Origin: a virus
IMG/VR virus record: IMGVR_UViG_3300030419_000256
Coordinates: 1 to 20,575 of that record
Direction: 5' to 3' (one strand)
DNA: 20,575 nt
Shown here piece after piece: positions 47-4,752 of this stretch (position 1 is the first letter of the stretch; every line of letters starts with the position of its first letter). Under the pieces are notes generated by a model. The model was not told where the DNA came from. It searched no databases and worked only from the letters and a program-made list of their open reading frames with translations. The position numbers and the translations under genes were made by a program.

Positions 47-1550
47 TTGTTAATACCTCTATCTCTCTTATCAATTTTTGTTTTTTAAGTCTAATACTAT
101 TAATCTCGTTTTGTTTAGTAAAAATGGGGTCATTTTGTTGATATTCTGCAAGATTTTTAGTGTAGATTAACCTGTTGTCAAATATATTTAATTGATCCTC
201 ATATATCTTTTCTTCTTTATAAAACGGAACATTATAAGTTAACAAGATAGAATTGTCTACCATTGCGTTTATTTTTATAAAATTTTTTGCTTGCAAATTT
301 TTGTCTATTTCTTTAATCTTTTCGTCAATTTTATCTAAAGTTTTAACAAGTCTTGCATCTGCTTTAGCCTCACGTATTTTTTCTTTTTGTTCTTTTCTAC
401 TCTCTGTCTTAGATTCGGCTGTTCTAGTAGGCTCTTCGCTATTGGATTCCTCTGCAATTTCTTCTGTTTTTTCTTCTTCTTTTTCTTCATTTTCTACCAC
501 CTCCATTTGCTTGTTCATTATGGGTTTTTCTTCTTTTTCCTCTTTTAATTCTTCAAATTCCTCAACCACTTCCATAACCATCTCTTCTTTTTCTTCTATA
601 AACTCTTCAAATTCTTCTACTATTTCCATAGGCATCTCTTCTTTTAATTCTTCAAATGTTTCTAATACTTCTAACTTGGTCATTTTAGGTTCTTCTTCCA
701 TAGGAGGTGGTAACATTTCTATTATCTCAAATATTTCAAATACCTCTTCCATTTCAAGTTCTTCTATGATTTCAAATTCTTCTTCAAAATTTAATTCTAC
801 GATTTGTTCTATCTCTTCAAACTCTTCAAATAGTTCTTCAAATACTTCTGTTATTTCTGTTTGTATTGCTGGTGGTAATGGTGTGTAATCAATATCCAAT
901 AATGTTGCTGTAAGTTCTGCACCAACCAAATTGGGTCCTATGGCTGCTGTAGAACTGGTATTGCCACCATCTATTCCTCGCCACTCCCAACTCCAGTTTC
1001 TTGCTCCTGTGCCATTATGAATAACGGTATCTGTGTAAGTAAATGTATTGCTATAATAGCCAGCATCATTATTTCTATTTTGAGTTACGCTGCCTAAAAC
1101 ACCATTAGATTCATCTAATATTTTTACAGTTGTCGAGTAACTATCTCTTTGTCCACCACCAGAAGATGCTTGACCACATTGATGAGCAGATCCCACCCAC
1201 TCACAGTTTTGTACTTCTGTTGTAGAGTTTAATCTTACTCCGCCATCTAAACTGTTTGCTGTAGTTGTAAACTGACCACTGTTTTCTTTTTCTGTTGTGA
1301 TGTTTAATAAAGAACCATTTGCAGATACAGTCCCTGTCCCTGTCGCCTCTATCTCGTTTGGATAGTATGTTGTGCCAGACATTGTCCAGTTACTAGTGCT
1401 GTTAAAACCATCAATAGAGCCACTAGAATTTTGTAAACTAGTTTGTCCTGTGCCTGCGTTGGGTAATAGATTACTTGATGTTGCTTCTTCAGAATTACTT
1501 TTTAGTGTTATCGATAACAGGATCAATAATGATAGCGTTAGCTTTAGCAT
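39..1550 (-). CDS. Exported protein with beta-rich head and long Glu-rich segment
   Basis: The 503-aa product is not a family I can name; similar secreted proteins occur in marine phage contigs as far as I recall. Residues 1-20 are a Sec-type signal peptide (one Lys, then a Leu/Ile run, then LKSNS). Residues about 25-225 are rich in Ser, Thr, Asn and Gly with alternating hydrophobics, suggesting a beta-sandwich, with one possible disulfide (C116, C125). Residues about 230-375 are extremely Glu-rich, in repeated patterns such as VEEFEE and FEELKEE, likely long acidic helices. Residues 375-420 are Lys/Arg/Glu helical and the last 80 are a mixed-charge tail. The start is fixed by a strong GAGGAGG site and lies 56 nt inside the upstream exported-protein gene. 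A surface or periplasmic role, for instance altering the infected cell envelope, is inference only. Confidence 0.82.
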   Translation of the reverse strand: MLKLTLSLLILLSITLKSNSEEATSSNLLPNAGTGQTSLQNSSGSIDGFNSTSNWTMSGTTYYPNEIEATGTGTVSANGSLLNITTEKENSGQFTTTANSLDGGVRLNSTTEVQNCEWVGSAHQCGQASSGGGQRDSYSTTVKILDESNGVLGSVTQNRNNDAGYYSNTFTYTDTVIHNGTGARNWSWEWRGIDGGNTSSTAAIGPNLVGAELTATLLDIDYTPLPPAIQTEITEVFEELFEEFEEIEQIVELNFEEEFEIIEELEMEEVFEIFEIIEMLPPPMEEEPKMTKLEVLETFEELKEEMPMEIVEEFEEFIEEKEEMVMEVVEEFEELKEEKEEKPIMNKQMEVVENEEKEEEKTEEIAEESNSEEPTRTAESKTESRKEQKEKIREAKADARLVKTLDKIDEKIKEIDKNLQAKNFIKINAMVDNSILLTYNVPFYKEEKIYEDQLNIFDNRLIYTKNLAEYQQNDPIFTKQNEINSIRLKKQKLIREIEVLTNG

Positions 1551-2103
1551 TTGCCTCCTCTATAATTTTTAATTCTTTTACATATAAATCATAGTCCGGT
1601 CTTAACTTGTCATATTTTTCCCAAGCTTTTGTTGCTTTTTTTCCTATCTGCCCTTCAAAAGGACACGGTGTGCCTGCATGATGCATGGCTTGAAATACTC
1701 TTTCGTCTTGACAAAGCATACTTACAGCTGCAACTTTCATACCTTGATTTGATAGTTCTCTTGCTAATTTTATTCTCTCACAATTTTTATCTCTAAAATG
1801 TTTACCAGCTGACACACCAAGACCAAAAGTTTGAACACCAGCTGATACACCTACAGCACAAATATCCATACCACCTGCATTTATGTTTGGAGCAGATGAT
1901 GTTGGAGGTGCTGATCTAATGTTAGATGTTGTATTGTTAGTTGTTGTTGAACTAGAACTAGATCCAGACTCATATGTTGTAGCGTTTGTGTAACCACCAG
2001 TTATAGAGGTGTTTGACCCACTTGTGTTATTTTGAGTCGTATCTGCAAAAACAGATGTTGTTAACAAAACAACTATTGCTAAAAGCAAACTTATTTTGTT
2101 CAT
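1495..2103 (-). CDS. Exported four-cysteine protein, conserved in marine phages
   Basis: The product is 202 aa from the ATG at 2101-2103. Residues 1-20 are a clear Sec signal peptide (MNK, then a Leu/Ile/Val core, then SVFA before D21). Residues 21-75 are a Ser/Thr/Asn linker. From about 78 comes a compact domain with a repeated GVSAG motif (85-89 and 96-100), RDKNCERIKLARELSNQGMK, LCQDERVFQAM and AGTPCPF. Its cysteines (82, 108, 131, 147) are even in number, fitting disulfides in the periplasm. I recall this domain as recurrent in phage genomes without known function. The TAATG junction with the Cys-rich mini-gene argues for the ATG rather than the in-frame GTG two codons upstream. The last 56 nt overlap the next gene. 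A periplasmic or envelope-modifying role is inferred from the signal peptide. Confidence 0.85.
   Translation of the reverse strand: MNKISLLLAIVVLLTTSVFADTTQNNTSGSNTSITGGYTNATTYESGSSSSSTTTNNTTSNIRSAPPTSSAPNINAGGMDICAVGVSAGVQTFGLGVSAGKHFRDKNCERIKLARELSNQGMKVAAVSMLCQDERVFQAMHHAGTPCPFEGQIGKKATKAWEKYDKLRPDYDLYVKELKIIEEANAKANAIIIDPVIDNTKK
1554..1560 (-). promoter_or_regulatory. Strong Shine-Dalgarno for the Glu-rich exported protein
   Basis: GAGGAGG lies 3 nt before the ATG at 1548-1550 and inside the coding sequence of the upstream exported protein. It decides the start of the 503-aa gene despite the unusually long 56-nt gene overlap. Confidence 0.75.
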
Positions 2104-2204
2104 TAACACTCACAGTTCTCACAAGTACAAACGCCATATTCATCTGCATGAAGATCTTCAGAACAATGACATTCATGATTACATTTACTACAATTTTTAT
2201 TCAT
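2103..2204 (-). CDS. 33-aa Cys-rich, metallothionein-like mini-protein
   Basis: This small gene is easily missed. The product has eight cysteines (5, 8, 12, 14, 26, 28, 31, 33) and three histidines (10, 13, 19) in 33 residues. The spacing is CxxC, CxxxC, CxC, then after an 11-residue acidic middle CxCxxCxC (CTCENCEC). The CxCxxCxC knot is the signature seen in cyanobacterial SmtA-type metallothioneins (CACEPCLC in SmtA, from memory). The likely role is binding Zn(II), Cu(I) or a similar soft metal as an intracellular store or buffer, or acting as a tiny metal-site protein. The ATG overlaps the 21-aa upstream gene by 8 nt (ATGAATAA) and the stop shares an A with the next ATG (TAATG), so it sits in a fully coupled gene chain. 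That is the best evidence it is translated. A zinc-ribbon-like protein is the main alternative; the CxC pairs and small size favour metallothionein. Confidence 0.75.
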   Translation of the reverse strand: MNKNCSKCNHECHCSEDLHADEYGVCTCENCEC

Positions 2205-2262
2205 GTTTTTTAAACAACCACTCTGTGTATCTTTTCCACAGATTCTTAATCCATTTAATCAT
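2197..2262 (-). CDS. 21-aa cationic, Trp-rich peptide
   Basis: The short reading frame starts MIKWIKNLWKRYTEW and ends LFKKHE. It has three Trp residues (4, 9, 15) spaced so that hydrophobics fall on one face of a helix, and a net charge near +4. Its start has the excellent GAGGAG site 7 nt upstream and overlaps the end of the 216-aa gene by 8 nt (ATGATTAA); its own end overlaps the metallothionein-like gene by 8 nt. It could be a membrane-associating peptide, a leader whose translation feeds the downstream Cys-rich gene, or both. Similar Trp/Lys starts occur on small marine-phage proteins as I recall, but no function is known to me. Confidence 0.62.
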   Translation of the reverse strand: MIKWIKNLWKRYTEWLFKKHE

Positions 2263-2905
2263 TTTTTTTCTCCTCAATTTCATAGAAGAACTTATCAGTG
2301 TCTTCCGTTTTCCATTTACGAGTGTCCTCTACATTCCATTCGGATGTTTGGACTTTCCAATCAGGAACTTCATCTTTAACTGTAAAAGATGGTATATCCC
2401 ATATTAGTCTATTGTTTGGCTGAGCCGCATAGTTGCCATCGTCTAAAGCAAGTATGTGTGCGCACTTATGTTCGTGCGGAATTTCAGAATGATCTGTATC
2501 TATTATATTACTCTCTGGGTGAGCAAAGTCAACTGTGAAAAGATAAGCACCTGCGTGCCATTTTTTATCTTTTCCTATGTATTTACCAGATTGTCCGTCT
2601 AAGATATCCCAACTAGTAACAGCAGGATAATAACTGAAAGAATTCCATAACTCCAACTCGTCCAGTCTATACCTAGGAACGTCCTCCGGTTTAAACCCTC
2701 TTTGAATAAACGCAGAAATTGGAAGTCTATAGAAAATTGCGCCGTTTTCCATAATTGCATGAAATAAAATTGGACGACCCGTAATGCAGGTAATACCAAA
2801 GATAATGCAATCTTCAACTTCGCCATGATGTTTTTTAAGGTCATATAAATATTCTCTCCTTATTTGAGAGTATGTTACAGGAATATTTGCATTTAAATAA
2901 GCCAT
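2255..2905 (-). CDS. Conserved marine-phage protein of unknown function
   Basis: The 216-aa product starts MAYLNANIPVTYSQIRREYL. I recognise the type as recurrent in marine phage contigs, next to polymerase genes, but know no function. It looks like a globular, mixed alpha/beta cytoplasmic protein without signal peptide or membrane helix. Notable segments are ECIIF-like beta strands (about 31-60), FSYYPAVTSWD (90-100), GKDKKWHAGAYLFTVDFAHP (111-130) and PHEHKCAHILALDDGNYAAQ (143-162). The last 30 residues hold three short Trp-starting repeats (W183, W190, W198), each close to W-x-x-E-x-T. It follows the polymerase gene by 2 nt (TAATTATG), so it probably serves replication or nucleotide metabolism, but that is context only. 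Confidence 0.85.
   Translation of the reverse strand: MAYLNANIPVTYSQIRREYLYDLKKHHGEVEDCIIFGITCITGRPILFHAIMENGAIFYRLPISAFIQRGFKPEDVPRYRLDELELWNSFSYYPAVTSWDILDGQSGKYIGKDKKWHAGAYLFTVDFAHPESNIIDTDHSEIPHEHKCAHILALDDGNYAAQPNNRLIWDIPSFTVKDEVPDWKVQTSEWNVEDTRKWKTEDTDKFFYEIEEKKND
2270..2275 (-). promoter_or_regulatory. Shine-Dalgarno for the 21-aa peptide
   Basis: GAGGAG with a 7-nt A-rich spacer precedes the ATG at 2260-2262. It lies inside the 3' end of the 216-aa gene and is the main evidence that the short frame downstream is translated. Confidence 0.7.
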
Positions 2906-2907
2906 AA

Positions 2908-4752
2908 TTAATCATTAATTGTTCCCCAGTTTTTGCCTGATTCGTAGTCTACTTTGTTAGGGATTTCTAACTTAACAGCATTCTCCATAATCTCAACAAT
3001 TTTTTTAGCTTGCTCTGGAGATTCTACAGAAATATCTAACTCATCATGTATTTGTATGTGCGCTACAATGCCTTCTTTGTATAAATCTAACATAGATTTT
3101 TTTGTCATGTCAGCAGCAGAACCTTGTATTAATTTATTTAATGCTTTGTAAGTATAAGCACGCTTGATGCCTGGTCCATGTTCCTGGACAGCTTGATCAA
3201 ATGGTAATGCTTTGTGCATACCAAAACTATTTGGTTCCCATAAATGAAACCGGCATAATCTTCCAAGTAACGTTCTTATTTGTCCTCGTTGTTGTGCTCT
3301 ATTAGATACAGACTTCATTAACGATTTAACAAATGGAACTCTGCTATGATAAATATTAAATAGTTCTTCAGCTTTATCTTTACTAACACCTAACTCTGCT
3401 TGTAATTTTGCTTTACCCATACCATAAAATAATCCAAGATTAATTGTTTTTGCTGCAGATCTTGGTATGTCTGCCATCTTTGCAACAATAGTGTGAAAAT
3501 CTGCATCTCCATCATCGTATGCTTCTTTAACACCAAACACACTTGTGTCTTGGTCTAGGGATGCGTAGTGAACTACTAGTCTTGGTTCTTGTTGACTGTA
3601 ATCAAAGCATCCCCACTCGCAACCTGATTCTGGTATGAAAAGGGATCGAATCAGTGGACCGAGGTCTTTATTACGAGCAGGAATTTGTTGTAAATTAGGG
3701 TTAGAATATGAAAATCTACCAGTAACTGTACCACCTTGGTCAGATCTTATTTGGTTAATATCCGCATGTATTCTACCTTTATGTTCATATTTTATAATTG
3801 TATCTATAAATGTTGTATGTGCCTTGTTTATTTCTCTAGCTTTTGCTATCTTCTTAACTAAAGGATGTTCATGATTAGACAGAAAGTTTTTGGTAAATGA
3901 TGGTGCCTGTGTTTTCTCAGTTCTTTCGTAAGGTAATTTTAATTTGTCAAAAACTTTGGCAATCGATCTTGCTGCCCATATTTGACATTCTACTCCTGTC
4001 TCTTTGGTTACTTCTGATAATAACGTTTTTTCTTCTGTACTTAACTGTTGTTTCAATTTATGAGCGGATTCGGTATCGACACGTACCCCTTTAAATCTCA
4101 TGTCAACTAAACATGGAAATAAATCTGTTTCTAAATCAAATATAGAATTTAAATCTTGGCTGTTTATTTCTTTTTGCATAACTTTCCATAAAGCCAGAGT
4201 AAGTTCCGCGTCTCGTTCTGCGTAATTACCTACATATAATGCGGGTAATTTCCACATATCTGCTTTAGGATCTACACCCCATTCTTGTGCTGCATTAGTT
4301 AACTCTGTTTCATTTTTACCTTGACCAACATAATCCCAACCTAAACTATTAAGATCATATCTATATCTGTTTTCGTTTACCAAAGATGCAGCTATCATTG
4401 TGTCATAAATTCTACCATTTATTTTAAATCCCATAGCTCTTATCCAACAAACATCATACATTGCATTGTGAAATATTTTATCTGCTGTTGACTCACAAAT
4501 ATCTTTAAACCATTTCATAACTAAATCTTTATCAAGATTACCACCACCTTCGTGATCAAATGGAAAATAGCCTGAGTAACCATCTGTAGCTACAGCTATA
4601 CCTACAACTTTACCTCTACCCACAACAGAACCTGTTCCTAATTTTTTTAAATCAGGATCATATGTTTCTAAGTCAATAGCTATTTCTTCAGCATGTCGTA
4701 GATCTGGAAACTCTGTAGGTTTTACCCACTCTGTCTGTGCTTTAAATATCAT
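2908..4752 (-). CDS. Family A DNA polymerase with 3'-5' exonuclease
   Basis: The 614-aa enzyme replicates the phage genome. The N-terminal proofreading domain has ExoI D27-x-E29, ExoII N96/D100 (FHNAMYD) and ExoIII Y177-x3-D181; there is no 5' nuclease domain, as is usual in phage PolA. The polymerase part has TGRFSYSNPNLQ (344-355), motif A FDYSQQEPR (D384, E389), motif B RSAAKTINLGLFYG (R431, K435, Y443) and motif C HDE (569-571). All catalytic residues seem present. Two variations stand out: the position matching E. coli Phe762 is Leu439, and motif A reads SQQEP where SQIEL is standard. Length fits a complete enzyme. The start overlaps the DUF3310 gene by 11 nt. It lies downstream of primase and helicase genes in one operon. 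Confidence 0.97.
   Translation of the reverse strand: MIFKAQTEWVKPTEFPDLRHAEEIAIDLETYDPDLKKLGTGSVVGRGKVVGIAVATDGYSGYFPFDHEGGGNLDKDLVMKWFKDICESTADKIFHNAMYDVCWIRAMGFKINGRIYDTMIAASLVNENRYRYDLNSLGWDYVGQGKNETELTNAAQEWGVDPKADMWKLPALYVGNYAERDAELTLALWKVMQKEINSQDLNSIFDLETDLFPCLVDMRFKGVRVDTESAHKLKQQLSTEEKTLLSEVTKETGVECQIWAARSIAKVFDKLKLPYERTEKTQAPSFTKNFLSNHEHPLVKKIAKAREINKAHTTFIDTIIKYEHKGRIHADINQIRSDQGGTVTGRFSYSNPNLQQIPARNKDLGPLIRSLFIPESGCEWGCFDYSQQEPRLVVHYASLDQDTSVFGVKEAYDDGDADFHTIVAKMADIPRSAAKTINLGLFYGMGKAKLQAELGVSKDKAEELFNIYHSRVPFVKSLMKSVSNRAQQRGQIRTLLGRLCRFHLWEPNSFGMHKALPFDQAVQEHGPGIKRAYTYKALNKLIQGSAADMTKKSMLDLYKEGIVAHIQIHDELDISVESPEQAKKIVEIMENAVKLEIPNKVDYESGKNWGTIND

Follow-up and report, generated by a model that had tools for sequence, protein, structure and literature searches.

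A 33-aa cysteine- and histidine-rich phage peptide with metallothionein-like architecture recurs in unrelated pelagiphage types

The window analysed here, which is the whole of a virus record of 20,575 bases, encodes on its minus strand a 33-aa peptide that, judged from sequence, is a member of a widespread and so far unnamed virus family across unrelated phage groups. On balance, we regard it as a phage-specific metallothionein-like peptide that would wrap a small metal cluster and hold or hand over metal in the infected cell. If the metal binding is true, this would be a widespread metallothionein-like family native to bacterial viruses, including phages of hugely abundant ocean cells, and it would suggest a direct phage management of host trace metals; the 33-aa peptide is also a short and makeable means to test phage metal control. 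The family is absent from the profile libraries that were searched (Pfam, NCBIfam, and PHROGs), and of the four records with the peptide in the annotated phage collection, two give it no annotation.

On the minus strand, four genes overlap in the order 216-aa gene, 21-aa ORF, Cys peptide, and 202-aa protein, so that the Cys gene comes third, and the genes for polymerase A, helicase, and primase lie upstream of it on the same strand. The features around it are as follows.

2908–4752, minus strand: DNA polymerase A, 63–64% identical to its closest named relatives, 023Pt_psg01 and HTVC027P
2255–2905, minus strand: 216-aa gene, phrog_3704, labelled ferredoxin in PHROGs
2197–2262, minus strand: 21-aa cationic, Trp-rich amphipathic ORF MIKWIKNLWKRYTEWLFKKHE, overlapping the genes on both sides
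2103–2204, minus strand: 33-aa Cys/His-rich peptide MNKNCSKCNHECHCSEDLHADEYGVCTCENCEC, with ATG at 2204–2202 and stop TAA at 2105–2103
1495–2103, minus strand: 202-aa protein with a signal-like N-terminus, secreted-looking, TAATG-coupled downstream of the Cys gene

The Cys residues of the peptide are at positions 5, 8, 12, 14, 26, 28, 31, and 33 and its His residues at 10, 13, and 19, and the C-terminus reads CTCENCEC. At the upstream junction ATGAATAA (2204–2197), the start of the Cys gene and the stop of the 21-aa ORF share 8 bases, and at the downstream junction TAATG (2105–2101) one base is common to the stop and the next start. The 21-aa ORF in turn begins within the stop codon that ends the 216-aa gene, with an 8-base overlap (ATGATTAA). 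A preliminary description of this DNA had reported the 33-aa Cys-rich ORF with 8 Cys and 3 His, the CTCENCEC end, and overlapping junctions on both sides, and all of these were confirmed.

Cys makes up 0.63% of the 6,693 residues in the 21 larger ORFs of the window, and the binomial probability of finding at least 8 in 33 residues is 3e-11. The Cys count alone is nevertheless insufficient because, among the other mechanical open frames of the window, one has 9 Cys in 33 and several have 7, as would be expected if this Cys-rich frame were open by chance in AT-rich phage DNA. A search of marine virus contigs for the C-x-C-x2-C-x-C pattern had been proposed earlier. A DNA pattern for H-x-D-x-Y-G-x-C-x-C-x2-C-x-C (the C-half scan) was run on viral contigs; it returned at least 120 stretches that are conserved beyond the motif. 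The unselected N-half, C-x2-C-x3-C-H-C, was found in 119 of the 120 C-half matches listed, the exception being L099 with CHA in place of CHC, and the spacer from the N-half to the His was four residues in 102 and five or six residues in 17 of the matches listed. The N-half scan required H, Y, and G and demanded neither the Asp nor the four C-terminal Cys. It gave 120 stretches, 102 of them within L009–L128 and 18 in new loci; D16, C21, C23, and C26 (core numbering) were kept by every one of the 120, and position 28 was occupied by Cys in 108 of them and by His in the other 12. Position 5, which is outside both patterns, was His in 62 and Cys in 54 and nothing else among the 116 distinct cores with a spacer of four that were listed. 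A C-x2-C tail at the C-terminus accompanied Cys at this position in 43 of 54, compared with 15 of 60, relatedness being uncorrected. The family core is C-x2-C-x-[H/C]-x-C-H-C-x4-H-x-D-x-Y-G-x-C-x-C-x2-C-x-[C/H].

Each of the reciprocal scans recovered the half that it had not requested, and therefore the Cys peptide is a real gene. The chance-frame reading is refuted by this recovery and is also opposed by the four records with the peptide in the annotated phage collection, which leaves its probability negligible. The earlier claim of a minimal ligand-rich peptide gene after polA thus stands as a real and conserved gene whose relatives retain their Cys in both scans. The pN/pS was 0.31 across all 29 core codons (6,670 pairs of cores listed), but this is weak evidence because the motif selection, by which the first and second positions of most ligand codons are fixed, itself lowers the value. 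Across the 16 codons outside both patterns, the pN/pS was 0.67, uncorrected for saturation, which is weaker evidence of constraint and would by itself suit a chance frame.

A tblastn search with the peptide in 50,697 phage records at E up to 10 gave four matches with 53–59% identity, which belong to the cultured Pelagibacter phages Eyrgjafa EXVC018P, Gjalp EXVC020P, and HTVC041P and to one uncultured deep Mediterranean phage, and in all four the Cys ORF lies shortly upstream of the capsid gene. The records of Eyrgjafa and Gjalp list it as a hypothetical protein; in HTVC041P and the deep Mediterranean phage it carries no annotation and is only overlapped by an upstream gene. Relatives of the window polA were found in 98 and relatives of the 216-aa gene in 92 of 139 loci (E ≤ 1e-6; loci listed). 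With looser markers, the 139 loci were divided into 112 of HTVC023P type, 4 with Autographiviridae markers, 4 with L130-type markers, 3 with both of the latter, and 16 with none, that is, 11 loci with Autographiviridae or L130-type markers. The L130 terminase showed a 75% match with DNA maturase B of pelagiphage HTVC011P. Three of the 16 unassigned loci were searched further for similarity. In L025, similarity to the pelagiphage myovirus HTVC008M covers 4% of the locus and falls at the single-stranded DNA binding protein; 15% of the 8,000 bases searched in L108 resembles HTVC008M, with shorter matches to many cyanophages; and the search of L128 gave no phage-type assignment. On this sequence evidence, the Cys gene is common to at least two unrelated pelagiphage types and probably to three; some of the phages that carry it infect Pelagibacter, and the hosts of the contigs are assigned from kinship.

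Among 84,980 prokaryote species genomes (contigs of at least 3,000 bases), the exact motif was present in a single stretch, that of L130 from a Candidatus Pelagibacter assembly. The Cys gene of L130 adjoins a T7-type terminase, and an integrase followed by tRNA-Leu is located 6 kb away. Because the terminase, integrase, and tRNA-Leu are near the Cys gene, this stretch is probably a prophage end, and the Pelagibacter locus is best described as a probable prophage. The integrase (PF00589) and then the tRNA-Leu were mapped to 6364–7777 of L130, close to this sole cellular-genome match. A host origin of the Cys gene was considered and rejected, as the only match in these genomes looks prophage-borne. 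The profile A1 matched 1 of 297 genomes of the Pelagibacter host order of L130, which was L130's own genome (genome completeness not stated), and a plasmid search gave only weak Xanthomonas ThiF matches.

The slot that follows the 216-aa gene was surveyed with the 216-aa protein as anchor, blind to Cys, in the best 80 of at least 600 loci; the 68 slots in which the 216-aa gene is followed by at least 300 nt were counted and 12 short loci were dropped. Within these 68 slots (from the best 80 of at least 600 loci), the peptide was canonical in 20, of a divergent CHC type in 9, CxC-rich in 1, and with other CxxC pairs in 6, and no recognised Cys gene was found in 32. The Cys gene is therefore accessory, as the canonical form occupies just 20 of the 68 homologous slots. 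Related loci without the conserved Cys, or with stop codons or frameshifts in this frame, had been named beforehand as evidence against the gene: neither applies to the family members found, whereas the slots without a recognised Cys gene and the divergent ones speak on the other side. The divergent slot peptides of L137, L188, L202, and L204 keep the Cys density and have lost H.D.YG, and that of L162 has CECEDCKCKCTGDCEDCKC. Downstream of position 3645, L162 also has a peptide MTKCECEDCKCKCTGDCEDCKC, which is even more metallothionein-like and whose tail resembles that of canonical members. The slot of HTVC027P is occupied by gp12 (L006 7582–7740), in which a Cys/His domain of another kind bears a Trp-rich tail, and that of 023Pt_psg01 by a membrane-type peptide. 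In L006, L139, L147, L160, L179, L191, L192, and L203, the same slot was noticed to contain a second kind of small Cys/His domain, one linked to a Trp-rich amphipathic stretch.

The family was compared with known families using eight members. Pfam, including Metallothio_Pro, gave no family for 8 of 8 at E ≤ 10, a search in which the HMMER filters discard most of the very weak matches; NCBIfam, which may not contain a MymT model, gave no family for 8 of 8; and PHROGs gave five weak matches at chance level among the eight members (best E 0.15). In a profile search of solved structures (PDB), the sole match was 8q5b at a non-significant E of 1.9, a small CPxCG-related zinc finger protein that is likewise tiny and has a D-x-Y-G stretch. 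The AlphaFold model of the peptide was middling (pLDDT 72.7, pTM 0.35), and a fold search with it gave a best Foldseek E of 6.8 and 0 of 3 chains at Z ≥ 2; no fold is therefore claimed.

The peptide is small and very Cys-rich (8 Cys in 33) with conserved CxC and CxxC, by which metallothioneins are broadly recognised. SmtA has its CxCxxCxC near the N-terminus and the ligand set Zn4Cys9His2. The phage peptide resembles the SmtA/BmtA proteins (PF02069) in being small and Cys-dense with few His, in the CxCxxCxC run, in a similar ligand count, and probably in forming a metal cluster, but it has 33 aa against the 51 positions of the profile, the run is at its C-terminal end, and the phage family has its own CHC and H-x-D-x-Y-G. 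The metallothionein-like architecture is well supported; the kinship with SmtA/BmtA suggested in the preliminary description, and membership in that family, is not supported, given the missing Pfam match in the eight members, the C-terminal CxCxxCxC, and the H-x-D-x-Y-G of its own. The mycobacterial copper metallothionein MymT is short and Cys-rich with His. The phage peptide is similar in these respects, but none of the eight members had an NCBIfam match, a library from which the MymT model may be missing, and copper is not indicated.

The SmtA/BmtA-type fold is given as a GATA-type zinc finger in the available part of PMC10612145. For the Pseudomonas metallothionein PflQ2 MT, the available part of PMC7387436 gives Zn3Cys9His and also Cd4Cys9His, and the ligand count of the phage peptide resembles both. 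The two are also alike in combining nine Cys with His in one small protein, in a disordered tail, and in variable coordinating residues; PflQ2 MT differs in being chromosomal with an SmtA-like fold, and no sequence relation to the phage peptide was shown here. In the literature on metallothionein with phages, marine viruses, pelagiphages, and cyanophages, covered mostly at the level of titles, the family was not found described, and the cyanophage metallothionein mentioned in the preliminary description was not traced among such papers on both subjects, one of which names cyanophages solely in its reference list. The words metallothionein, zinc, and cysteine are absent from PMC9599517 on pelagiphage genomes, cysteine-rich occurs solely in a reference title in PMC9038755, and metallothionein appears in a table of bacterial genes in PMC3974807.

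As Cys and His are exchanged at core positions, these positions are taken as metal ligands, and 11 Cys/His ligands, with Cys and His interchangeable at two sites, in an acidic peptide (charge −5 in the window peptide, mean of −2.6 in the family cores) argue for the layout of a metal-thiolate cluster. Among known proteins, bacterial metallothioneins come closest in ligand count. The acidic core contrasts with a nucleic-acid-binding finger. Metal binding, and its cluster form, is what we infer from these patterns. Within 29 residues, some 11 Cys and His side chains would enclose a small metal cluster, most likely of three or four Zn(II) ions, with Cd(II) or Cu(I) being possible, and the peptide would hold metal or hand it over inside the infected cell. 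More weakly, the peptide may buffer or donate metal, for example to zinc enzymes of the phage, among them the M15-family peptidase that occurs in relatives, and from its position alone it might be made together with the replication-to-lysis genes. Metallation of the primase and the taking of metal from the host, as proposed in the preliminary description, would be further candidate purposes. The Peptidase M15 family (PF08291) is zinc-dependent. The HTVC027P peptidase falls in this family, has relatives in 15 of 139 loci (loci listed), and would be a lysis enzyme needing metal hand-over.

Several observations go against this reading. The Asp is as fixed as the Cys, and so are the Tyr and Gly, yet both patterns required these two; the gene is accessory; HTVC027P and 023Pt_psg01, the nearest cultured or named relatives, have other peptides in the slot; the pN/pS outside the motif is 0.67; and the middling AlphaFold model gave no useful structural match. 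The fixed Asp hints at a defined fold or a partner, and its presence in all 120 N-half stretches despite no selection for Asp would suit a compact structural zinc domain with two or three separate sites, acting as a host-takeover or assembly adaptor. Zinc would then only stabilise the fold, and the conserved H-x-D-x-Y-G face and the amphipathic helix, fused or adjacent, would bind protein or membrane. Consistent with such an adaptor, a Trp-rich amphipathic stretch is joined in frame to the Cys core in L026, L045, L110, and L125, a helix is predicted at residues 2–16 of the L125 model (mean pLDDT 64.9), and gp12 of HTVC027P, in the same slot, combines a distinct Cys/His domain with a Trp-rich tail. 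We consider the adaptor less likely, since the ligands per residue exceed the need of a finger, Cys and His are exchanged as ligands, and the divergent members lose H.D.YG and retain Cys.

Alternatively, the Cys could hold a Cu(I) or Fe-S centre or act as a reductant in a thiol redox, copper, or iron-sulfur peptide with no zinc store, which appears improbable. The CxC/CxxC spacing suits Cu(I) too, but Zn(II) is a better match than Cu(I) or Fe-S for the conserved His and for the exchange of Cys to His, and the HTVC027P slot has a different Cys domain. On the side of a redox or iron role, infection with HTVC027P raises the host iron transport genes and zur, according to the available part of PMC12753301. 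Among these readings, we favour metal holding or hand-over, with the adaptor role as its main rival.

Pelagiphage infection yields ribosome-free cells according to the available part of PMC11066056, and the question was therefore raised whether host ribosomes store zinc. The ribosomal proteins examined from the host order (L229–L236), four L36 and four L31 with two L31 being identical, have no CxxC zinc sites. The idea that ribosomal zinc supplies the metal is weakened by these L31 and L36 sequences and by the fact that, in the available part of that source, the ribosome-free cells came from HTVC027P, which is without the canonical slot peptide and outside the four tblastn matches. Among 197 genomes of the Pelagibacter host order of L130, whose completeness was not stated, no match to PF02069 was found, and the control Synechococcus elongatus was matched. 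From the L31 and L36 sequences, the host order seems zinc-sparing. Tentatively, and with less confidence than in the metal-cluster peptide itself, we propose a mobile virus-borne metallothionein family common to unrelated SAR11 viruses, with a compact 11-ligand zinc cluster that is sometimes helix-tethered, which would control the metal pool in zinc-sparing hosts without an SmtA-type protein.

The neighbouring genes gave further observations. The 216-aa gene has no Pfam family, and its labels conflict, being ferredoxin in PHROGs and PurM in the GenBank annotation of its HTVC027P relative. The gene at 1495–2103 shows DNA similarity to HTVC202P, Baldr, and Mosig, which are otherwise different pelagiphages, and is possibly another mobile gene. 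The 503-aa protein at 39–1550 on the minus strand has a very long Glu-rich stretch and a secreted-looking N-terminus. Of 72 homologous slots, 60 matched a loose pattern for a short Trp-containing peptide, compared with 1 of 72 when the opposite strand was read, and the Trp-rich 21-aa ORF could be a membrane-active lysis peptide. By eye, some of the slot Trp peptides adjoin M15-peptidase-like and small membrane ORFs. In L015, L050, L073, L096, and L097, the genes just upstream terminate in CxxH...CxxC at the start of the Cys gene, for example KIQCNTHSRFKKSCPICNEAAK.
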